From: an uncultured Clostridia bacterium
GTDB lineage: Bacteria; Bacillota; Clostridia; Oscillospirales; Ruminococcaceae
Assembly: GCA_947629785.1 (NCBI GenBank)
Contig: CANRFB010000007.1
Span: 1-64,000, forward strand
Direction of reading: 5' to 3'
Length of the DNA: 64,000 bases
The notes under the pieces were generated by a model. It saw only the letters and a program-made list of their open reading frames with translations. It searched no databases and was not told the DNA's origin. This document shows, in pieces, positions 26,359 to 57,230 of the stretch; the first letter of the stretch is position 1; each line of letters opens with the position of its first letter. Both the position numbers and the translations under genes were made by a program.

Positions 26359-29300
26359 TCAGGATATCCGCACCGTCTTTCCCAGTGCAAATGAATACAG
26401 ATACGCTTCCTTTACACGCTTGCCAAAGATCTTTGTCAGAGCCGCGGCGTACAGTTTTACTTGCAGATCGTACCTTTCCGCCAGCTCGTCGGGAGATCTG
26501 ACACGGTCGGTCTTATAGTCCACCAGAACTATCTCACCGTTTTCCTCAAACAAACAATCGGCTGTTCCCTGAAGCATACTATCATTATTATACTCCTTTA
26601 ATCTGCTGTCGTCAAGTGAAATGTCGGATTTTCTGACTAAAAATTTCTGTTCGCGGCGGATCATGCCTGAATTTTTCATGCGGGAATACAGTTCCGAAGC
26701 AAAGAATCCCGATATCTGCTCGATTTTCAGACTGTCAATTTCCTCGCTGCTCATAATTCCCGAATCCGCAAGCCGATGTGCTTCGCCGATAATATCCTGT
26801 TCCGCCTTGGAATAGTCCGCGTACTGCATGAACGTATGCGCTGCCGTTCCTCTTTCCGCGGCTGTCAGACCGCTTTCCTCGGAAAAGTCGGGGCGGCGCA
26901 GTATAAATTCTTCCTCCGGGCTGTTCTTGGCAACTTCCGTTACCGTCAGTTTAGCCGACTGAATTACCCTTTCGTCGTCATACTTAAAGGCAAAAAGCTT
27001 TTTAAGCGCTTCTACCTTTGAACTGTCCGCCTTTGCGTCCGTCTTTTCTGGAACGGTAACTTCCGCTCCTGTCGGTCTGAATACCCGCACATTTACCTTT
27101 CCGCTGCCGATGGTCATGTCCTTGTCCTTGGGCGTTTCATCGCCGTTGGAAATCTTTTCAATATCTCCAAGCCAGTTTACATCAGCTTTGAACAGAACTT
27201 CCGCTAACCATTCAAGCATTGAACCCGCATTTGCCTTTTCAGAAAGCTTTTTACCGGCATTTCCCGACAAACCGCCCGAAGTATTTCCTGCCGTACTGCC
27301 GGCTTCTTCATTTCCGTCGGGCATGGTAAAATTATCATATGCCGATCTGATTTTCTTTAAAACGCCGTCGTTTAACGGAACGGTTATGAAAAGCTGTTCC
27401 TTTGCCCTTGTCAGCGCAACATAAAGCAAACGCATTTCCTCGCTTATTGAATTTTTCCTGTTTATCTCGGAGATCATCAGCCGTGGGAATGAATTATAGA
27501 GCCGCAGTTTTTTCCTTTCCTGAATTTTCAGACCGATACCGTAATCGGCATTTATCTGAATACGTTTTTTCATATCGGTATCATTAAATTCCGAATAGGT
27601 CCCGCAAAGGAAAATGAAAGGATATTCCAGTCCTTTGGATTTATGTATCGTTTTTATGGAAACGGCATTTTCGCCTGCCGATACGGTAGAAGCCATACTC
27701 ATGTCGCTGCCGCGGCGGATCATATTATCCGCATAGCGTATAAATCCCGAAATTCCGCCGCCTGAATTTTTCTCATAGCTGTCCGCAATTTCAAGCAAAA
27801 GCCGCAGATTTGCTTTCTTGACATTTCCGTCCTTGTACGTCTGCACGGTGGAAAGCAGGTCCGTACTGTCGTAAATTGTTCTGATGAATCTTTCTAATTT
27901 CTGTGAAGCGGCGCAGTAACGCAGTTTTTCAAAAGTTTTCATAAATCTGTCAAGCTTGGCGTGCAGTTCGTCTGAAACGGTTATGCCCTCCGTTTCCCCT
28001 GCCATTATCGCCTTTATTTTGTTGAAAAATTTCTTCTCATCTTTTTTCACAAGGGAAATGACCGCCATGTCCTCTGCATTCAGCATGAACATCGGTGACA
28101 TAAGCGCCGCCGTAAGCTGAATATTCTGCATGGGATTGTCCACTACCGCAAGCATACTCATAAGCGCGGAAATTTCCCTTGAGCGCAGATACCCCTCCGG
28201 TTCTTCCGCGTGCGCTTTTATTCCCGCTGCTGCCAGAGCTTTTGAATACGCCTCGAAATTCTTCCTGCTCCTTGCCAGTATGCAAAAATCCCTTGGTTCG
28301 CACGGGCGTTCCGATTTTTTTTCGTAAACCTTTTTCACGCCAAGCATGGAACGTATTCTTTCCGCGGCAGCCGCGGCTTCAATTTCCGCAAGGCTTTTTT
28401 CTTCTGCGTCGCTGTCGGAAACTTCGTCTTTTGGGGAATTATCCGAGCCGGCTTTTTTTGCGGAAATTCCAGAAATTACTATTATTTCCGTATCTCTTTC
28501 GTCCTCGGGATATTTTGCTCCCTCAACCAATGCTTCGCCGGAAGTGTAGTCCACATCGCCGACTTTTTCGGTCATAAGATTTTCAAATACAAAATTTACA
28601 AAATCAATAACGCTCCTGCTGCTGCGGAAATTCTTATTCAGCAGAATTTTAACATTAGGCTTGTAATCACCGTTTTCCGAATAATCCTCGGCAATATTCA
28701 GAGCATTTTTGAAAAGCTGCGGGTTTGCCAGTCTGAAACGATATATGGACTGTTTCATGTCGCCCACCGTAAACAGATTGGTTCCGCCCCGTTCGGCAGT
28801 TCCGCCCTTGGAAAGCATTTTGAAGATCAGGTCCTGATTATTGTTTGCGTCCTGAAATTCATCTATCATCACCACTGCGTAATATTCGGAAAGTTCCTCC
28901 GCAAGCTTTGTTTTATAAATATTGCCTTGATCGTCCTTATCCGCAAGAAGCGTTACCGCAAACTGTTCCGCATCTGAAAATCCCAGAGCGTTTTTTTCAT
29001 TTTTCAGCGACCTTAATTCGGCGTCAAAACATCTTACCAGTTCAAACAGCGAATGAAGTATATTTGCGTGCTTTTTATAGTCGTCTTTTATCATATCGGA
29101 AGTAAAAATATTTTCGCTGAATTTTTTAAAATCCGTTTTGTAATTGTTCCGCCTGTCCATGATTTTTTTGCGTTTTTCTTTTATTTTCTCATCTGTTATC
29201 TTTTTTCTTTCAAAATCTGCAAACACCACGCTTTGAACAGCAAATTTCTTATCCCATGTACCGCTTGCGGAAATATTATTTATCAGGCTTTCAAACGTAT

Positions 29301-30054
29301 TTTTATCATTTTCCAAAGCGGCGGATCTTTCCCCCATAAGCTGATTATATTCATTCTGCAAAAGAATTGCTTTGTTTTTAAATTTTTCATATGCGCTTTT
29401 GACATATTCTTCGTACAAAGCGATAATTTTCGGGTCGTTCTCAGAAAATCCCGCGGCATAAAAATTTTCCCACTCATTCATTTTGTCGTCATAAAACGGT
29501 ATTGAAACCAGAAAATTATAAAGTTCAAGCAGAACTTCTTCAAGTTCCGAATCTCCCGCTTTCGTACCGCTGAAAAAGTCGCATAATTTTTTCATGGTTT
29601 TTGGCTTTTCGGCGTAGAACTTTTCAAAAGTGTTCGCCGCCGCATTCCGCCTGATAAGGGATTCCTCCTTGTCGTCCATTATCCTGAATCCCGCAGAAAC
29701 GTCAAGGGACTGAATATTTTCCCGTATCATATCAAAGCAAAAAGAGTGTATGGTGGAAATTTTCGCCGTCTGCAAAAGCGCCTGCTGACTGCAAAGCCAT
29801 TCGCTGTCGGGTTCATTTTCTATGCGTTTTGAAAGTGCTTCCGAAAGCCGCTGTTTCATCTGCAAAGCCGCGTCATTCGTGAACGTAACTACTACAAGCC
29901 TGTCGGCGGGAGTCTTGTTTTCCGTGTCCGAAATTATCCTTATAAGCCGCTCCACCAGCACGGAAGTTTTACCGCTTCCCGCCGCCGCCGAAACGATTAT
30001 TCCCGAACTGTCCGCATTTATGGCGCTGCTTTGTTCCTTGGTCCATTCACTCAT
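26359..30054 (-). CDS. addA: ATP-dependent helicase/nuclease subunit A
   Basis: MSEWTKEQSSAINADSSGIIVSAAAGSGKTSVLVERLI; UvrD motifs; C-terminal VDYKTDR nuclease motif. Confidence 0.95.
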   Translation of the reverse strand: MSEWTKEQSSAINADSSGIIVSAAAGSGKTSVLVERLIRIISDTENKTPADRLVVVTFTNDAALQMKQRLSEALSKRIENEPDSEWLCSQQALLQTAKISTIHSFCFDMIRENIQSLDVSAGFRIMDDKEESLIRRNAAANTFEKFYAEKPKTMKKLCDFFSGTKAGDSELEEVLLELYNFLVSIPFYDDKMNEWENFYAAGFSENDPKIIALYEEYVKSAYEKFKNKAILLQNEYNQLMGERSAALENDKNTFESLINNISASGTWDKKFAVQSVVFADFERKKITDEKIKEKRKKIMDRRNNYKTDFKKFSENIFTSDMIKDDYKKHANILHSLFELVRCFDAELRSLKNEKNALGFSDAEQFAVTLLADKDDQGNIYKTKLAEELSEYYAVVMIDEFQDANNNQDLIFKMLSKGGTAERGGTNLFTVGDMKQSIYRFRLANPQLFKNALNIAEDYSENGDYKPNVKILLNKNFRSSRSVIDFVNFVFENLMTEKVGDVDYTSGEALVEGAKYPEDERDTEIIVISGISAKKAGSDNSPKDEVSDSDAEEKSLAEIEAAAAAERIRSMLGVKKVYEKKSERPCEPRDFCILARSRKNFEAYSKALAAAGIKAHAEEPEGYLRSREISALMSMLAVVDNPMQNIQLTAALMSPMFMLNAEDMAVISLVKKDEKKFFNKIKAIMAGETEGITVSDELHAKLDRFMKTFEKLRYCAASQKLERFIRTIYDSTDLLSTVQTYKDGNVKKANLRLLLEIADSYEKNSGGGISGFIRYADNMIRRGSDMSMASTVSAGENAVSIKTIHKSKGLEYPFIFLCGTYSEFNDTDMKKRIQINADYGIGLKIQERKKLRLYNSFPRLMISEINRKNSISEEMRLLYVALTRAKEQLFITVPLNDGVLKKIRSAYDNFTMPDGNEEAGSTAGNTSGGLSGNAGKKLSEKANAGSMLEWLAEVLFKADVNWLGDIEKISNGDETPKDKDMTIGSGKVNVRVFRPTGAEVTVPEKTDAKADSSKVEALKKLFAFKYDDERVIQSAKLTVTEVAKNSPEEEFILRRPDFSEESGLTAAERGTAAHTFMQYADYSKAEQDIIGEAHRLADSGIMSSEEIDSLKIEQISGFFASELYSRMKNSGMIRREQKFLVRKSDISLDDSRLKEYNNDSMLQGTADCLFEENGEIVLVDYKTDRVRSPDELAERYDLQVKLYAAALTKIFGKRVKEAYLYSFALGKTVRIS

Positions 30055-30056
30055 AA

Positions 30057-33000
30057 TTATATCCCCTTTCCTTCCAGAACTTCGGAAATACGCTTTTCAT
30101 CGTCCGGACCGTATGTACGCACTTCCTGCGGCGGATATTTACCGCAAATCGAATAATAGTCGCAGTAATCACATGGAAGATAACTGTCCGGCGGCATAAG
30201 CGGGCTTGCTTCTATCTTACCGTTCAGTATATCCTCCGCCGTCTGTTTTATAAGCTTGTAGGAATATTTCCGAAGATTATCCATCTGCTTATCGGTAACA
30301 AGCGAGGACATTTTTTTGCTATATCCGCCTGTGGTTTTAGAGATCTTTACGGGGATAAATTTTCCCCCCACATCTTTTTCCATTGCCTCTATGACGTCTT
30401 TTTCTTCCAGAACAAAGCCGTTCATTTTATATGTGGTGCTGTAGATCTTTTCAATATCATTCTCGTCGGAATCCCTGTCAAGCTGGGACTTTGCGTCCTT
30501 TGCGGGCATATAAAGCACGCCCGCGGGGATATTTCCGTTATAAATTCCCTTATGGGTATTATCCGTAAGGGCAAACAGATACAGCAGCATCTGCATATTC
30601 ACCCCGTAAAGCAGATCGGTGAACTTAAACTCCTTTACGCCTGATTTATAGTCAATTACGCGGATATATTTCCTGTTGTTTTTTGAAAAAACATCTATCC
30701 TGTCCACCGTTCCCTCAAAATACACGTCTATCCCGTTCTGAGTGGTAAGTTTAAGCGGCGTTTCGCTGCCGTTTTTTGAGATGGTGTATTCAAATTTATC
30801 GGGTACAAATTCATTCTGCCTGAATTCTTCCGTCATGTGCATAAGAATATCCGTGACCGTCTGCGCAAGCTGCGAAAAGGTCATTTTATACCGCCGTGTT
30901 TTTCCGAAATCCCCGCCTATGGCGTCGCTCTGATAATAGGTTTTCAGGTTGGCTTTTACCTCTTTGAAAATATCACTGCGCTTCATGGAAATAAATTTCG
31001 ACTTCTTGTTTTTTTTCAGAAATTCACAAAGGCAGTAATGTATTGCCGTACCTCTTGAGGGACTGTCCATGTCCATTTTCCTTGTGGGATAAATGCCCAG
31101 ACCTTTTTTGCAGTAGTACATAAACGGGCATTTCTTGTAGTCCTCGAATCTTGACGCTGAAAAATATATCGGCTGTCCGAAAAGTTTCCTGCTTGTTTCC
31201 CGTGAAAGGCTATGCTCCGCGGAATTTTCCACATCGCGCAGATATTTTATTCTTGACGAATATTCGGGAATCTCATTCAGAACGGCAAGGAGGCTCGCAG
31301 AATCGCTGTCGCCGCTGCGGTAATTCTGAACATACTGATAATACGCCGCTTCGGGAGTCGAACAGAAAGAAAGCAGCCCGCGCTTTTCAAAATCGGAAAC
31401 AATGCTTTTTCCGAAAAATTTTTCCGCCTGATTTGCAATAACCGACGGGTAAAGTGCATTTCCCGAAACATCAGCGCGGGAATAGGATATATACAGCCTG
31501 TCCGAAGCCGCCGAAACCGCCGTGTACGCCGTGAAACGTTCCTCCGCCAGCATATCGCGGGAATTTCCCGAAATAACAGTTCCCGCCTGTTCAAGAACGA
31601 GCCTGTCCTTGTCGCTGAGAAGCCCCGATGATTTTGCCGCATACGGGAAAAGCCCCTCGTTTACGCCGATAAGGAAAACAGCTTTTACGTTTGAAAGCCT
31701 TGCGGTATGCGCCGCCGAAAATCTCACGCAGTCCAGCGTCTGCGGCGGCGAGGAAAGTTTCAGCCTTTCCACCGACGAGGAAAACAATCCCGAAAAATCC
31801 GAAATCGACATTTTCACATCGCCCATAGCCTTGTTAAGAGTTTCCAGAAGAACGCAAAGCATATCCCAGAGCTGCTTTAGCTCCCTTACGGCTGTTAAAG
31901 CGGCGCTGTCGGCAGTATTGCAGCCGTTGTAAATTTCCGTAATATGTTCCGCGGCTTCCGTTTTATCAAGGAAATCCGTGACCGCGCGGCAGATAGTCTT
32001 TCCGTCCGCGTCCTTGCAGGCGCTGCGAAGTTCCGCTATCGGAGAAGTAACTTTCTGCCTTACGGCTTCCGCGTCAACTTTCAGAACTTTGTCCTCGGGA
32101 AAATTCTCGTTCCACATCGCCCCGTCAACGTTCCACTTGTAACAGTAATCCTCCGCCGCGGAAATTTCATCGTCCGTAAGCCCCAACATTCCCGTTTTCA
32201 TATAGCGGAGCCAGTCCTCCGTTGACGATTTTTCGGAAGAAGCAAGTTTCAGCGCCGTTTTGATAAAAATAAACAGGGATTTATGCGCCGCGGTAAAGCT
32301 TTCATCGGTGTAAAACGGTATTCCGTATCGCTCGAAACCGCTTTCCATTACCGAAGAATATGTTTCTTTCTGACGGGCGATAACGGCTATGTCCTTATAC
32401 TTGAAATTTTCCTCCATTACAAGCCGCCGTATTTCCGAACAGACAAAATCCCCCTCCCCGTAAATATCCTGCGAGTTGTAAATACTTATCGCTTTACACT
32501 CGCCCTCATATTTACAGTTGACATTTCTGAGAACATTCCCGCTGAAAAATGCTATTTCGGGCGCGTTGAAACGCTTCTGTTCCGTAAGCATATCCACCGT
32601 AAATTCAACGCCCATGCTTTCCGCCGTGTTTTTCAGCCTGTAAAACGTCTTGTTTACCGCTTCAAACAGTGAATCGAACTTTCCCGAAATTTCCTCCGAA
32701 GCAACGCAGACCGTAAGTTCACCGTCATTCATTATTGCCCTTAACATATCGTATTCATCGGCGGTGAAACTTTTAAACGCGTCTACAAACACGGTTTTCC
32801 CCTTGAAATAACCGCTCCGCACGGCTTTTTCCGCCGCCTCGGAAATATCGCTTTCGCCGTCCTTGTAGCCTTTTTCCGCAAGCCGCCTTGTATATTCGGC
32901 ATAAATAAGCGCAATATCGGTGAATTTGTCCTTTACGCTGTCGTCGGCGCGTTCGGCACAGCTTAAAAACTGCCCGGGAGTTATTCCGCTGACCGTAAAA

Positions 33001-33380
33001 TCCTTTACTATGTCAAGACAGCTGTCAACAAAAGAAAGCTGCGCCGCCTGCCTGTTGTAGAAACAGAATTTCTCATTTTTCAGAATATCCGACACCGTCT
33101 GAAACATCATTACATTCTTTACAATATCATCGGCATATCTGCCCTTTGCCCCGCCGTTTTGAATGAATATCTCCTTTGCAAGCTTTGTAAAGGACATTGT
33201 ATTTACACGGTTGAAAAGTTCCGCTCCCATGTGGTCGTAAAGGTCTTTTTCAAACTCAAATGAAAACTGGTCGGGAATTATTGCCGTAACATCTTTGTTT
33301 TCATCAGCCGCAATTTTTATGCGTTTCATCATCTCGCAGGTCTTTCCGGAACCCGCGCCGCCGGCGATAACATTTACCAT
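30057..33380 (-). CDS. addB: ATP-dependent helicase/nuclease subunit B
   Basis: VIAGGAGSGKTCEMMKRI, VIDYKSG, Fe-S Cys cluster CDYCDYYSIC. Confidence 0.93.
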   Translation of the reverse strand: MVNVIAGGAGSGKTCEMMKRIKIAADENKDVTAIIPDQFSFEFEKDLYDHMGAELFNRVNTMSFTKLAKEIFIQNGGAKGRYADDIVKNVMMFQTVSDILKNEKFCFYNRQAAQLSFVDSCLDIVKDFTVSGITPGQFLSCAERADDSVKDKFTDIALIYAEYTRRLAEKGYKDGESDISEAAEKAVRSGYFKGKTVFVDAFKSFTADEYDMLRAIMNDGELTVCVASEEISGKFDSLFEAVNKTFYRLKNTAESMGVEFTVDMLTEQKRFNAPEIAFFSGNVLRNVNCKYEGECKAISIYNSQDIYGEGDFVCSEIRRLVMEENFKYKDIAVIARQKETYSSVMESGFERYGIPFYTDESFTAAHKSLFIFIKTALKLASSEKSSTEDWLRYMKTGMLGLTDDEISAAEDYCYKWNVDGAMWNENFPEDKVLKVDAEAVRQKVTSPIAELRSACKDADGKTICRAVTDFLDKTEAAEHITEIYNGCNTADSAALTAVRELKQLWDMLCVLLETLNKAMGDVKMSISDFSGLFSSSVERLKLSSPPQTLDCVRFSAAHTARLSNVKAVFLIGVNEGLFPYAAKSSGLLSDKDRLVLEQAGTVISGNSRDMLAEERFTAYTAVSAASDRLYISYSRADVSGNALYPSVIANQAEKFFGKSIVSDFEKRGLLSFCSTPEAAYYQYVQNYRSGDSDSASLLAVLNEIPEYSSRIKYLRDVENSAEHSLSRETSRKLFGQPIYFSASRFEDYKKCPFMYYCKKGLGIYPTRKMDMDSPSRGTAIHYCLCEFLKKNKKSKFISMKRSDIFKEVKANLKTYYQSDAIGGDFGKTRRYKMTFSQLAQTVTDILMHMTEEFRQNEFVPDKFEYTISKNGSETPLKLTTQNGIDVYFEGTVDRIDVFSKNNRKYIRVIDYKSGVKEFKFTDLLYGVNMQMLLYLFALTDNTHKGIYNGNIPAGVLYMPAKDAKSQLDRDSDENDIEKIYSTTYKMNGFVLEEKDVIEAMEKDVGGKFIPVKISKTTGGYSKKMSSLVTDKQMDNLRKYSYKLIKQTAEDILNGKIEASPLMPPDSYLPCDYCDYYSICGKYPPQEVRTYGPDDEKRISEVLEGKGI

Positions 33381-33383
33381 AAG

Positions 33384-33911
33384 CTACTTCCTTTCCGATT
33401 TGTCTGCAAATCTCCAATTAATATCCCTGTAATACGGAGTGGCGTAATTTATCCCCACCCGCGGCAGAGTTATTATTTCGGGACGATAACCGTCGTCACG
33501 GATACATATCCGCGGATTCCCGAAAAGCGGCTGACCGTTGAAACTTCTGTCAACGCCCAGTGCCTTTGTAAGCTTTCCCGGACCGTCATAAATTTTACAG
33601 GCGCGGAACAAAACAGCCTGCGGCATTTCTTCCTCGCCTGTAACTACATTCATAAGGCTGTGCATACCGTAACAAAGATAAACATAAAGGTAGCCTGCCT
33701 TACCGTATAAAATCTCCGTTCTTGCCGTTCTGCCCTTGCTTGCATGGCAAGCGGTGTCTTCTTCACCGCGGTAAGCCTCCGTTTCGGTTATGCGGAGCGT
33801 GATCTTATTCCCACTGTCGTCGGTGCGGACAATAAGCTTTCCCACAAGTTCGGGAGCGACTTCAAGACAATCCCTGCAAAAGAACTTCCTTGGAAGTATC
33901 TTACTTTTCAT
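33384..33911 (-). CDS. DNA-3-methyladenine glycosylase (AAG/MPG family)
   Basis: VAPELVGKLIVR, ITETEAYRGEEDTACHASKGRTARTEILYGKAGYLYVYLCYGMHSLMNVVTG. Confidence 0.93.
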   Translation of the reverse strand: MKSKILPRKFFCRDCLEVAPELVGKLIVRTDDSGNKITLRITETEAYRGEEDTACHASKGRTARTEILYGKAGYLYVYLCYGMHSLMNVVTGEEEMPQAVLFRACKIYDGPGKLTKALGVDRSFNGQPLFGNPRICIRDDGYRPEIITLPRVGINYATPYYRDINWRFADKSERK

Positions 33912-36129
33912 CCGGATTCCCCCTGCCGTCGGAAATATATTCTCCCATCTTTTCAAATACTGCGTTTATATCAAGCGGTTTTGAAAGATGTGCGTTCATT
34001 CCCGCCGCCTTGCTGCGTTCCTCGTCCTCCGCAAAGGCATTTGCGGTCATGGCAAATATAGGAATGGTCTTTGCGTCAGGGCGTTCCATTTCACGTATTT
34101 TCATGGACGCGCCGCAGCCGTCCAGATTGGGCATCTGGATATCCATAAGGATAAGGTCGTAATATCCTACAGCGGAATTTTCAAACATCTCGACCGCTTT
34201 GAAACCGTCCACCGCTTCTTCTATAATTGCGCCTGTTGACGCTCCCAGAAGTTCCCTTGCAATTTCGCGGTTAAGCTCGTTATCTTCCGCAAGAAGTATG
34301 TGTTTTCCGTGGAAATCATATTTCCGGATCCCGTCCGCGGAACTGCCTTTGTCATAGGCTTTCCATGTGGTTTTAGCAGTATTTTCGGTCTTTCCGAAAG
34401 GAAGCATTACGGAAAATGTACTTCCCTTCTGATAAATGCTGGAAACCGAAACGCTTCCGCCCATAAGCTCGGAAAAACGCTTCACAATGGAAAGTCCCAG
34501 ACCCGTTCCGCCGTACTTGTGAGCCGTTCCCGAATTTTCCTGTTCAAAAGACTCGAATATCTTCCCGAAATTCTCCTCTTTTATGCCGATTCCCGTATCG
34601 GTTATGTCAAACCTGAACCATATTCTGTCGGCTTCGTGTCCGCATTCGCTTACGGAAAATGTAATATTTCCGCCTGCCGATGTGAATTTCAAGGCGTTTG
34701 AAATAAGGTTTGAAAGTATCTGGTTCAGCCTCAGCGAATCGCCTACCAGCGGGCTGTACAATTTGCCGTTGATAGTGGTCTCAAAGGAAATTTTCTTTGT
34801 TTCCGCCTGTATCTGAAAGATATTGTCAAGATTTTCTATAAGCTGTTCAAACTCAAAAGGTTCGCTGCGTATCTCCATTTTGCCGCTTTCGATCTTGGTC
34901 ATATCAAGAACATCATTTATCAGCGCAAGCAGATGTTTTGAGGAAAGCTCGACTTTTTTCAGGCAATCCTCAACTTTTGCAGGCTCGTTGATGTGCTGTT
35001 TTGCAATAGTGCTCATGCCGATGATCCCGTTCATCGGCGTGCGTATCTCATGGCTCATTCTGCTTAGGAATTCGCTCTTTGCCGCGCTTGCGTACTCCGC
35101 TTTTTCGCGGGCGGCGCGGGCTTCCTCATTTGCCGAAGCAAGTTCGCGGGCGTGCCTGCGCATATTTGAAAGCGTCACCGCAAACAAAGTTCCTATCAGT
35201 ACAAGGACTACTATCAGCGTGGAAATGGCATTCTTGTTGAGCCGCCATATAAGCTTGTTTACACTGAGGTCAACGGCGTCATAGGAAGTTCCTATCATCA
35301 TATACCATTCCGTGTCCTTTAAAGGTGCATAGTACACACACTGTAAGCCCTCGCTGTTGCGGTAGATGGTCATTCCCGATTTTTCTTCGGAAATATCCTC
35401 TTCCACCTGCTCTGCGGAATACCCGTCCTCAAACTGCGCATAACGTTCCATCATGGAAAACATATTCGTGCCGTACGGAAGCGTGGTATCTGCCGAATTG
35501 TATATTACCATGCTGCCCTGCTTGGTTATAATGCTTGCATATGTCTTTCCGCCGCTTCTGCTGAGGGCAAGCTGATCCGAAAAATCATCGCTGGAAAATC
35601 CCGCTATCGCGCCGATAAAAGTTTTATCCCCGAAACTTACAGGCTCGGTGAGAGTGCCTATAACTATCATATTTTCGCCGAAAAAAGTCTCGTCATAAGA
35701 GATCTGGTCGGAATTTCCGTCCAGAAGTTCCGCAAGAAAGCTCAATTTTGTAACGGCGGAATACGCCCCGTCCTTGCTGTAATAAATGCCGTTCTCATCA
35801 ATAAACGCCATAAAATCAAAGCCGTTGTATTCTTCCATTCTGATGAAATAATCCGCCAGCGAATCGCTGTCTTTAAGGTCTTTATCCGAAACGCAGTCCG
35901 CGGCGGTCCTGAGATTTGCAAAACGCGCGGAAAGCCCCGTGTCGAAATGACTTGCGGTCTGTTCCATCATTTCCCGAAGATACACGCTGTTAAGACTTGC
36001 AACAAAATCCGCCGTAATTCCCCTTGCCGAAAATATCAGCCATACAAAACAAAGCAGACATACCGCTATGATCACACTTGTAAGCAGGATCATAAAACGC
36101 TTTGATCTTCTTTTTACAGGTCGATCCAT
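33901..36129 (-). CDS. Hybrid sensor histidine kinase (extracellular Cache-like sensor, HisKA, HATPase_c, receiver)
   Basis: Two TM segments around ~290 aa sensor; FLSRMSHEIRTPMNGIIG; DTGIGIKEENFGKIFESFEQ; HILLAEDNELNREIARELL...DLILMDIQMPNLDG. Confidence 0.92.
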   Translation of the reverse strand: MDRPVKRRSKRFMILLTSVIIAVCLLCFVWLIFSARGITADFVASLNSVYLREMMEQTASHFDTGLSARFANLRTAADCVSDKDLKDSDSLADYFIRMEEYNGFDFMAFIDENGIYYSKDGAYSAVTKLSFLAELLDGNSDQISYDETFFGENMIVIGTLTEPVSFGDKTFIGAIAGFSSDDFSDQLALSRSGGKTYASIITKQGSMVIYNSADTTLPYGTNMFSMMERYAQFEDGYSAEQVEEDISEEKSGMTIYRNSEGLQCVYYAPLKDTEWYMMIGTSYDAVDLSVNKLIWRLNKNAISTLIVVLVLIGTLFAVTLSNMRRHARELASANEEARAAREKAEYASAAKSEFLSRMSHEIRTPMNGIIGMSTIAKQHINEPAKVEDCLKKVELSSKHLLALINDVLDMTKIESGKMEIRSEPFEFEQLIENLDNIFQIQAETKKISFETTINGKLYSPLVGDSLRLNQILSNLISNALKFTSAGGNITFSVSECGHEADRIWFRFDITDTGIGIKEENFGKIFESFEQENSGTAHKYGGTGLGLSIVKRFSELMGGSVSVSSIYQKGSTFSVMLPFGKTENTAKTTWKAYDKGSSADGIRKYDFHGKHILLAEDNELNREIARELLGASTGAIIEEAVDGFKAVEMFENSAVGYYDLILMDIQMPNLDGCGASMKIREMERPDAKTIPIFAMTANAFAEDEERSKAAGMNAHLSKPLDINAVFEKMGEYISDGRGNPDEK

Positions 36130-36130
36130 A

Positions 36131-38056
36131 TCAACCGATCACCTTGATCCTTCCCTCAATACCCGAAGAAATATATTCCTTATTATGTTCTTCAAAATAA
36201 TACTGCAAAGCACCTGCATAAGTATATTCCGTTTCCGAAATAAGCTTTACGTTCTCCGCAAGCGGTGCTTCATCGCTGAATACGTTCAGCATGGTAAAAC
36301 CGTCGCCGTTATTGTTGAAATAGCCGTTTGCGCCTGCCATGTAGCTTGTGACGGCAATTATATATTTTCTGCTTTCGTCAAGAGGCGATCCGTCGGGAAG
36401 CGTCACATCAAGAAGTTCGGTAGAACCGTCCTCCGCGGGCTTTCTGAAAGAATAGCAAAGCCCCGAAACATTCAGGAATCGTCCCGCAGGTATGCCGTTA
36501 TCCTGAACGAACCCCGAAATGCCGTTTGAAAGCATCTGACGGATAGTTTCCGCATCGACTTCAAGAGTAACAAGCATATTATCATAAGGGCAAACCACAT
36601 CAAGGTCCGAGCCGAAAACATTTCCCTTATAAAGGCTTCCTCTTATAGAGCCGCCGTTTACAAATGCCATATCCGCGCCTGTAGCTTCGCGTACAGCGTC
36701 CGAAACAAGGTTGCCGATAGTGGTTTCCCCTAATCTGGTATTGTAATTTTCGTAAAGCATATCCTCGTCAACAACGCCGATCAGTGTCTGATCGTACTCG
36801 ATACTTTCATTGCCGTTTATGTAATAATCGTCCACCTGAGCAAGTGCTGTGGAAATATCCGTATCGCCTCTCAGAACGGCAACCATTCTGTTCCCGAAAT
36901 ATCTTGTTACGTTTGAGGGTATTCTTATATTGTAGATAAACCATCCGTCAGCACATTCCTTTATGCCCGACGGTATCCTGTCGCTGTAAGGAACGTTTTC
37001 CGCAAGGTATGAATGTTCCGCGCTTGTGTCTTTTATAAACGCAGACTGCCCCTCAACGGTGGAAAGCAGAGACATAATTCTTTCGCAGGCGTCAAGCTTA
37101 TCTGCATTTTCCGCATCGGAAAGCGCGGAATTCAATGCAAGATATGAATCAGGCTGTGCGATTATCCAAGGCTGGTTGCCGTTTTCACCGAGGAACGGTC
37201 TCATTTCATATTCGTACTTGTCCGTAAGTTCCGAAAGCCTGTTTAAAAAACTTGTATTTGAATATACCGCCAACAAAGTGCCGTCAAGCATACGCTTTTC
37301 GACAGGTACCTCGTTGCCGTTCAGGTCAAGTCCCGACAGATTGAAATAGCCTTTCTCCACCATTATGCTGTCAAGAGCGAGACAGTTCTGCATTTTCTCC
37401 GAAAATGACGACTTCTTTTCTTTAATATCCCTGCTCCATATTATTCCGTCGGAAACGCCGAGGAAGTCGGGTATCTGTATTCCCAGAAAATAGGAAGAAA
37501 TAGTGAACCACGCCGAATTTATTCCGAAAAGCGATCCGTCCTCGCCGATGCCCACGCCCATTCCCGCGGCTTTCTCTAACAGCGCGGGGAAATCGGACGC
37601 TTTTTCGGGGAAATCCAGACCATTTTCTTCCATGATCGTCTTATTGAAGATATATCCGTAATACTGTCCCGGAGTCGGAATAAAGCAGGATCGACCGTCT
37701 ATCATAGTTGACTGGACTATTCCCGACTGATACTTGTCCGTAAACGGCTCCGCGGACAGGTCAAGAACATAGTCCCGAACATCGCCTGACGGCATAGACG
37801 TGGTGACAATATCCGTTCCGTGACCGTTTCTCAGGCGGCGTTCGCTTTCGCCGTCAATGGTAGCTTCCATGTTTATCTCAATTTCAAGATCAATATCGGG
37901 ATATGTAGTTTCCACCAATTTTTCAAATTCTGGCAGCTCGGTGGTATACATCATATTTACAACTATCCTGCCGTTATCCGGTGTATTTTCTTTCTCACAG
38001 GAAGAAAAGCAGGACAGGACAGAGACTGCCAGCAGAGCTGCAATAATTTTTTTCAT
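36131..38056 (-). CDS. Lipoprotein fusing an extracellular solute-binding domain to a 5'-nucleotidase C-terminal (NT5_C) domain
   Basis: Signal peptide MKKIIAALLAVSVLSCFSSCEK; family-1-type binding region; C-terminus TLIGVVDED...RLGETTIGNLVSDAVREATGADMAFVNGGSIRGSLYKGNVFGSDLDVVCPYDNMLVTLEV typical of NT5_C. Confidence 0.85.
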   Translation of the reverse strand: MKKIIAALLAVSVLSCFSSCEKENTPDNGRIVVNMMYTTELPEFEKLVETTYPDIDLEIEINMEATIDGESERRLRNGHGTDIVTTSMPSGDVRDYVLDLSAEPFTDKYQSGIVQSTMIDGRSCFIPTPGQYYGYIFNKTIMEENGLDFPEKASDFPALLEKAAGMGVGIGEDGSLFGINSAWFTISSYFLGIQIPDFLGVSDGIIWSRDIKEKKSSFSEKMQNCLALDSIMVEKGYFNLSGLDLNGNEVPVEKRMLDGTLLAVYSNTSFLNRLSELTDKYEYEMRPFLGENGNQPWIIAQPDSYLALNSALSDAENADKLDACERIMSLLSTVEGQSAFIKDTSAEHSYLAENVPYSDRIPSGIKECADGWFIYNIRIPSNVTRYFGNRMVAVLRGDTDISTALAQVDDYYINGNESIEYDQTLIGVVDEDMLYENYNTRLGETTIGNLVSDAVREATGADMAFVNGGSIRGSLYKGNVFGSDLDVVCPYDNMLVTLEVDAETIRQMLSNGISGFVQDNGIPAGRFLNVSGLCYSFRKPAEDGSTELLDVTLPDGSPLDESRKYIIAVTSYMAGANGYFNNNGDGFTMLNVFSDEAPLAENVKLISETEYTYAGALQYYFEEHNKEYISSGIEGRIKVIG

Positions 38057-38094: not shown

Positions 38095-38123
38095 ATTTTA
38101 TCATATTTCGTAAAATTTGTCAA
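38095..38123 (-). promoter_or_regulatory. sigma-A promoter of the SBP-NT5C/kinase/repair gene cluster
   Basis: TTGACA-17 bp-TAAAAT on minus strand. Confidence 0.75.
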
Positions 38124-38160
38124 GCATATGCAAAGTCAAATTCCGTGATCTTACAAAAAT

Positions 38161-38192
38161 AAAAGTCCAAAGGCATACGCCTCCGAACTTTT
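38161..38192 (-). terminator. Terminator of the AGCS symporter gene
   Basis: 14-bp stem with wobble pairs, ATAC loop, followed by TATTTTTG on minus strand. Confidence 0.7.
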
Positions 38193-38200
38193 ATAAAAAT

Positions 38201-55446: not shown

Positions 55447-55641
55447 ATGTTCAGTCCTTTCTTTGAAACGTTTCATATATATAAGTCGCAATATTTCCGA
55501 AAAATCTTACATTATTCCGAAAGAAAAATAAAAATTATTTTTCGGGCAATTATCCGGCAAATATAATTTTATCATAAAATACCCGTTTGTCAATTTCGGG
55601 CATAAAGTAAAAATTGTTTCCGTGCAAATTTCTTTATACTA

Positions 55642-55670
55642 TTGACTTTTGCAGGGAAAAATTATATAAT
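55642..55670 (+). promoter_or_regulatory. Promoter of the amino-acid ABC transporter operon
   Basis: TTGACT-17 bp-TATAAT. Confidence 0.75.
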
Positions 55671-55724
55671 GTATTCAAGACACCGGAAAAATATTTCCGC
55701 ATTACAAAGAAAGGAAAATATTGT

Positions 55725-57230
55725 ATGAAAAAGCAAAGTATCTTACTGCTGCTTATGGCGGTAATGACAGTGTTCCTGCTGCCTGTGAACGCTTTCGCGG
55801 CAGGAGACGGAACGGAGCGTTCCACATTCACCGTGGGATTTGACGCGGAATTCCCGCCCTACGGCTATCAGGACACCGAAACGGGAGAATATGTGGGTTT
55901 TGACCTTTCCCTTGCCGAGGAAGTCTGCAACCGCCGCGGCTGGACACTTGTGAAACAGCCCATTGACTGGAATTCCAAGGACATGGAACTGAAAACAGGC
56001 GCTATCGACTGTATCTGGAACGGTTTTACCATGAACGGCAGAGAAAACGACTACACATGGACCACTCCATATGTTGACAATTCTCAGGTGGCGGTGGTGA
56101 AAGCCGACTCAGGCATCACCGAACTCGGTCAGCTTGCGGGAAAAGTTGTCGCCGTTCAGACAGACAGCTCCGCACTTGCCGCTTTTACCGGCGAGGACGC
56201 TTCGGAAGAAAATATCGCCCTTGCGGATAGCTTCAAGGAACTTCAGCAGGTGGGCGACTACAACAGCGCGTTCCTGAATCTTCAGAGCGGCGCTGTGGAT
56301 GCAGTATGCATGGACATCGGCGTGGCAAATTACGAAATGGAAGCCCGCGGCGGCGGTTTCATAATGCTGGACGAGCATATTTCCTCTGAGGAATACGGCG
56401 TTGGTTTCCTGCTTGGAAATACCGAACTCCGCGATGAAGTTCAGGTAACTCTTCTGGAAATGCTTGCCGACGGAACGTTCGCCCAGATCGCCGAGAACTG
56501 GGGACTTTCCGACAGCGTCTGCCTCAGCGCGGAGGATCACGTTACCGATGAGGTCGTAAAGGAAAGCACTTCATTCGGCGAAAAATTAGTAAGCATATGC
56601 GGACAGCTCCTGAAAGGCGTTGGCGCGTCTCTGGCAATATTCCTGCTGACGCTGCTGTTTTCGCTGCCCCTCGGACTGCTTATCGCTTTCGGCAGAATGT
56701 CAAAATTCAAACCGCTGAGTTTGCTTGTAAAACTGTATATATCCATTGTCCGCGGAACGCCGCTTATGCTCCAGTTATTGGTAGTATTCTTCGGACCGTA
56801 CTTCCTGTTCGGGGTAAGCACTTCGGGAAATTACCGTTTCTACGCGGTAATAATCGGTTTTGCGCTGAATTACGCGGCATATTTCGCGGAAATTTACCGT
56901 TCGGGAATACAGGCTGTTCCCATAGGGCAGCACGAAGCCTGCGAAATTCTCGGTTACAGCAGGCCGCAGAAGTTTTTCAAGATAGTATTCCCCCAGATGC
57001 TGAAAAACATAATCCCCTCAATTACAAATGAAGTCATAACTCTTGTCAAGGACACGTCCCTTGCATTTGCAATTTCCTACACGGAGATGTTCACACTGGC
57101 AAAGCAGGTAGCCGCTGCGGAAGCGACTATCATGCCGCTGTTTATAGCGGGCGTGTTCTACTATGTATTTAATTTCATAGTTGCGATGATAATGGACAAG
57201 CTTGAAAAGAAGCTCAATTTCTTCAGATAA
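55725..57230 (+). CDS. Amino-acid ABC transporter, fused substrate-binding/permease protein
   Basis: Signal peptide, FTVGFDAEFPPYGYQDTETGEYVGFDLSLAEEV binding domain, permease EIYRSGIQAVPIGQHEACEILGYS. Confidence 0.93.
   Translation: MKKQSILLLLMAVMTVFLLPVNAFAAGDGTERSTFTVGFDAEFPPYGYQDTETGEYVGFDLSLAEEVCNRRGWTLVKQPIDWNSKDMELKTGAIDCIWNGFTMNGRENDYTWTTPYVDNSQVAVVKADSGITELGQLAGKVVAVQTDSSALAAFTGEDASEENIALADSFKELQQVGDYNSAFLNLQSGAVDAVCMDIGVANYEMEARGGGFIMLDEHISSEEYGVGFLLGNTELRDEVQVTLLEMLADGTFAQIAENWGLSDSVCLSAEDHVTDEVVKESTSFGEKLVSICGQLLKGVGASLAIFLLTLLFSLPLGLLIAFGRMSKFKPLSLLVKLYISIVRGTPLMLQLLVVFFGPYFLFGVSTSGNYRFYAVIIGFALNYAAYFAEIYRSGIQAVPIGQHEACEILGYSRPQKFFKIVFPQMLKNIIPSITNEVITLVKDTSLAFAISYTEMFTLAKQVAAAEATIMPLFIAGVFYYVFNFIVAMIMDKLEKKLNFFR

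Follow-up and report, generated by a model that had tools for sequence, protein, structure and literature searches.

What is the role of a lipoprotein that joins a solute-binding protein (SBP) domain to the C-terminal domain of a 5'-nucleotidase (NT5_C), and with which partner does it work? The question is raised by a gene in the window, the whole 64,000-nucleotide stretch of an uncultured Clostridia bacterium analyzed here. An earlier note, made from the same letters, had proposed that the protein presents a ligand to the neighboring hybrid kinase. Our analysis leads to a similar view: with a probability of about 0.62, we read the lipoprotein from its sequence as a dedicated extracytoplasmic co-receptor of the downstream dCache hybrid kinase that would take a nucleotide-class ligand and would be neither a transporter part nor an enzyme.

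The protein carries a lipoprotein-type signal peptide, in which the lipid-anchor cysteine is C16 or C20. In a sequence search of the PDB, the part that follows (residues about 40-415) matches the family-1 binding protein 3quf (E = 2e-7, or 1.4e-12 with a profile). The Pfam model SBP_bac_8 matches weakly in the window protein (E = 0.007) and is found in 10 out of 12 group members, with a best E of 6e-14; by both matches the domain is of the ABC-importer type. The NT5_C part starts at about residue 425. Its match to PF02872 (5_nucleotid_C) exceeds the Pfam cut-off (E = 1.4e-27), and in the PDB search residues about 423-640 match the 5'-nucleotidases 2z1a, UshA, and CD73. A metallophosphoesterase domain (Metallophos, PF00149) gives no match in the window protein at E up to 1; 12 group members scanned at E up to 0.01 show none either. 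The earlier note had named these two domains and the missing catalytic half, and all three calls are borne out; the HMM comparison, which the note had named as a possible refutation, strongly supports NT5_C. AlphaFold gave a mean pLDDT of 35 for the full protein from a single sequence and 36 for the NT5_C domain from two sequences. The coordinates are collected in Table 1.

Table 1. Coordinates of the features discussed; positions are those of the window unless a locus is named.
Feature	Position	Strand	Details
Fusion lipoprotein gene	36131..38056	(-)	641 aa; signal peptide and Cys, SBP domain, NT5_C domain
Family-1 solute-binding domain	36842..37969	(-)	residues about 30-405; 3quf, SBP_bac_8
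5'-nucleotidase C-terminal domain core, PF02872	36320..36748	(-)	residues 437-579; holds R441, N467, R472, Y491, Y572
Promoter-like sequence	38095..38123	(-)	TTGACA-17-TAAAAT, TG before second hexamer; 11/12 consensus matches; ahead of fusion gene
Intrinsic terminator after AgcS-type symporter gene	38159..38194	(-)	16-pair stem, then T run
Hybrid sensor histidine kinase	33901..36129	(-)	742 aa; TM, dCache, TM, HisKA, HATPase_c, one receiver (Pfam)
Extracytoplasmic dCache sensor domain of kinase	35299..35931	(-)	residues 67-277; dCache_1 E = 1e-5, weak
Sensor pair (lipoprotein and kinase)	33901-38056		
MPG-AddB-AddA DNA-repair run	26359-33956		
ORF, solute-binding and permease domains	55614-57230	(+)	family-3 solute-binding domain fused to ABC permease domain; ATPase gene next
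Partner kinases with extra receiver-like domain	L046:10147-12774, L047:10725-13325, L049:5510-8179, L091:4449-7145, L094:8908-11508		

Searches covering the family, order, class, and phylum returned 18 full-length orthologues; together with the window's protein these make 19 copies, spread over 10 genera and four families of one class. Since these 18 relatives in other genomes share the architecture, the fusion is no assembly accident. About 3 to 4% of the genomes in the family have a full-length orthologue, as do a few from three further families of the class. Outside the class, 399 sampled genomes of the phylum gave no full-length orthologue. Plasmid and phage collections yielded no full-length fusion and only partial matches, all listed ones being to the NT5_C part. 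We found no published description of an SBP-NT5_C fusion in the open-access literature.

In all 19 copies the next gene is a same-strand hybrid kinase of dCache-HisKA-HATPase-REC layout, at a distance of -20 to +1 bp (in the window, the kinase gene begins 1 base past the fusion stop codon), and the genes flanking the pair vary from genus to genus. None of the 19 copies has an adjacent permease gene. By contrast, among 20 mapped loci of plain SBP relatives that lack NT5_C, 15 adjoin one or two ABC permease genes, as read off ORF maps by size, membrane spans, and the EAA motif (P = 8e-7, Fisher's test, the loci being partly dependent); in the source genome, six of the seven other SBP genes likewise adjoin permeases. 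The earlier note had set the absence of an adjacent permease beside the presence of the kinase, had taken the protein for a kinase-linked component rather than part of a transporter, and had named homologues consistently beside ABC permeases as evidence that would count against it. The gene order found here supports it on each point. Elsewhere in the window, a family-3 solute-binding domain and an ABC permease domain are joined in one ORF (Table 1).

The fusion gene starts at ATG 38056, with a G-rich ribosome-binding site ahead of it. The terminator after the AgcS-type symporter gene marks the boundary between that gene and the fusion gene, and it is followed by a promoter-like sequence; cotranscription from the symporter gene is therefore unlikely. 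On its other side, the sensor pair lies directly upstream of, and overlaps, the MPG-AddB-AddA run. Other species of the same genus have the MPG-AddB unit without the pair, and we accordingly rejected a functional link of the pair with MPG, AddB, and AddA. The pair was therefore probably inserted upstream of MPG-AddB, and the adjacent DNA-repair genes are probably unrelated to it.

Across the 17 partner kinases scanned with Pfam, dCache_1, HisKA, HATPase_c, and Response_reg are present in every one, and the dCache_1 match reaches E = 2e-12 in orthologous kinases. We observe no regulator gene adjoining the lipoprotein-kinase pair. In five partner kinases, an alignment shows a further receiver-like domain ahead of the terminal one. 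The divergence of the SBP domain correlates more closely with that of the kinase sensor (r = 0.95) than with that of the receiver (r = 0.74), shared descent inflating the correlation. Extracytoplasmic sensing of nucleobases by dCache_1 domains is known from purine and uracil sensors of gut and other bacteria (PMC11245519, PMC12415202). There the Cache itself binds the ligand, purines being bound through a Y[RK]W-type motif (PMC11245519), whereas 18 of the 19 partner kinases, the window's included, have no [RK]xW motif in the distal dCache module. This favors docking as the role of the Cache and ligand binding as that of the lipoprotein.

The NT5_C domain is shared with enzymes such as 5'-nucleotidase, CpdB, and CD73 (PF00149 plus PF02872), in which it supplies the base clamp and the ribose and phosphate contacts; these enzymes also have a catalytic metallophosphoesterase half, in whose place the fusion has its SBP domain. 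When CD73 is in its open form, its C-terminal domain grips AMP with six residues: R354 and R395 at the phosphate, N390 and D506 at the ribose, and F417 and F500 at the base (PMC8677862). Using alignments with UshA, a venom nucleotidase, and 2z1a, we mapped these to R441, R472, N467, D585, Y491, and Y572 of the fusion, respectively. All six counterparts are identical in the 19 copies, D585, just past the end of the PF02872 core, being placed by the 2z1a alignment alone because of an insertion between it and Y572. This invariance agrees with the ligand-presenting head that the earlier note had proposed. The NT5_C core is also the better conserved half (mean pairwise identity 65%, with 26% of positions invariant) compared with the SBP domain (49% and 10%, respectively; 19 copies each). 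Isolated from the rest of the enzyme, the C domain of Escherichia coli CpdB is catalytically inactive, yet has a substrate/adenosine site (PMC7922932), which counts in favor of the co-receptor reading.

Two features set this site apart from that of the enzymes. Both base-clamp phenylalanines of UshA and CD73 are tyrosines in the fusion, and all 19 copies have about seven inserted residues between Y572 and D585 (about 36300-36343), among them an invariant Y579. The insertion sits in the loop bearing the base-stacking residue and is not seen in the aligned UshA and 2z1a. Given both changes, the ligand preference may differ from that of UshA and CD73.

We also found a sister group of 23 fusions of equal layout (605-695 aa, about 20-25% identity; among its loci are L050, L053-L067, L092, and L093). 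PF02872 matches 20 of the 23, none has the NGGxIR motif, and the other nucleotide-site residues are mostly gone. Among the 22 sister fusions with readable surroundings, 21 have a kinase gene at most two genes away on the same strand, so an NT5_C domain can serve without nucleotide binding. Hybrid kinases adjoin nearly all sister fusions, and at some loci these fusions occur as tandem pairs. In a maximum-likelihood tree of the SBP domain only, the window's group forms one clade (100/100) and joins the sister group (99/95), and plain SBPs from importer operons fall outside both. The tree is consistent with a single origin of the fusion, the nucleotide site having been kept in one branch and lost in the other; the reverse order is conceivable as well.

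Ligand class, docking, direction of the switch, and output we infer as follows. The NT5_C head would hold a nucleoside, a nucleotide, or a nucleotide-containing compound, gripping it by the base clamp Y491/Y572, the ribose contacts N467 and D585, and the phosphate arginines R441 and R472. The SBP domain would dock on the Cache domain of the kinase; a second ligand, perhaps a sugar, may bind to it. Movement of the lipoprotein upon ligand binding would then change the Cache dimer and thereby both the activity of the kinase and phosphotransfer to its receiver.

There is precedent for such pairs of SBP and kinase in LuxP-LuxQ, TorT-TorS, and XylFII-LytS (PMC6321045), and in CuaD-CuaS (PMC10384115). 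Two features of an SBP-dependent three-component kinase system are found here: an SBP with signal peptide and cysteine that is encoded beside a kinase with two TM segments in 19 of 19 copies, and an extracytoplasmic sensor domain in the kinase, namely the dCache_1 domain. A third, contact of the SBP with that sensor domain and an effect of the ligand on kinase output, is predicted by the co-receptor reading. In the LuxP-LuxQ receptor for AI-2 of Vibrio, the binding protein regulates the hybrid kinase encoded with it, whose sensor domain is extracytoplasmic; the lipoprotein may do likewise here by analogy. Unlike the fusion, LuxP, which is a periplasmic binding protein, has no NT5_C domain. LuxQ is also the best NCBIfam match of the window's kinase core, at 316 bits far under the cut-off of 1200 and covering the kinase/receiver part alone. 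In CuaD-CuaS of Ruminiclostridium cellulolyticum and XylFII-LytS of Clostridium, the SBP binds the extracytoplasmic part of the kinase and raises ligand sensitivity (PMC10384115, PMC6321045). These, like the present pair, are Gram-positive combinations of an SBP with a sensor kinase, and CuaD is also a lipoprotein, although neither CuaD nor XylFII has an NT5_C head. The CuaD-CuaS-CuaR system differs further in that its kinase CuaS belongs to class I and has a separate regulator of AraC type; here the kinase is a hybrid with an attached receiver.

The main competing explanation makes NT5_C a structural or docking module only, which poses the SBP domain on the kinase while the SBP alone binds the ligand. 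The sister group speaks for it, having lost NGGxIR and most of the site while nearly always remaining beside a kinase, as does the single fusion origin of both groups with which the SBP tree is consistent. We nevertheless regard it as rather unlikely for the window's group, which keeps six nucleotide contacts invariant over 10 genera in its better conserved half; a pure scaffold would need neither a base clamp nor phosphate arginines. Distinctly doubtful, though compatible with a co-receptor, is a version in which the SBP domain replaced the catalytic half so that both heads close on one composite ligand such as a nucleotide sugar, NT5_C taking its nucleoside-phosphate end while the other end goes to the sugar-type SBP domain. 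If true, the pair would serve to sense, through the kinase, extracellular nucleotide sugars or nucleotides from lysing cells or the host.

Two further explanations concern transport and catalysis. The lipoprotein could be an ordinary ABC-importer SBP, with permeases and ATPase encoded elsewhere and NT5_C as an accessory that captures nucleotides for uptake. Its SBP domain is indeed of the family-1 importer class, and the nearest plain-SBP relatives (L097, L116, L117, and L129) all lie in importer operons, several of them (L097, L116, and L129) apparently together with a sensor kinase of two TM segments and a regulator about 500 aa long; the kinase link may have its ancestral setting in such operons. 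Against this, the genes adjacent to the fusion in the 19 copies invariably include the kinase and never a permease, which makes a role in import improbable. As a residual or split 5'-nucleotidase, the protein would instead pass substrate from NT5_C to a separate phosphoesterase, or be weakly active itself. The intact substrate-binding residues would suit such a role, but we consider it highly improbable: The Metallophos domain is absent, the fusion is the sole PF02872 protein of its genome, the CpdB C domain alone was inactive on every substrate tested (PMC7922932), and the partner gene is a kinase every time.

The co-receptor reading thus describes a clade of kinase-linked lipoproteins in Clostridia that would have reused, as part of a receptor, the domain with which an enzyme holds its substrate; the nucleotide site is frozen in one branch and lost in its sister branch. 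Surveys limited to domains within kinases would overlook the likely ligand-binding part of such a system. Most likely, the pair lets gut-type Clostridia sense extracellular nucleotides or related compounds, and it is a candidate for nucleotide or nucleotide-sugar sensing in gut-type anaerobes, signals for which few dedicated bacterial receptors are known.
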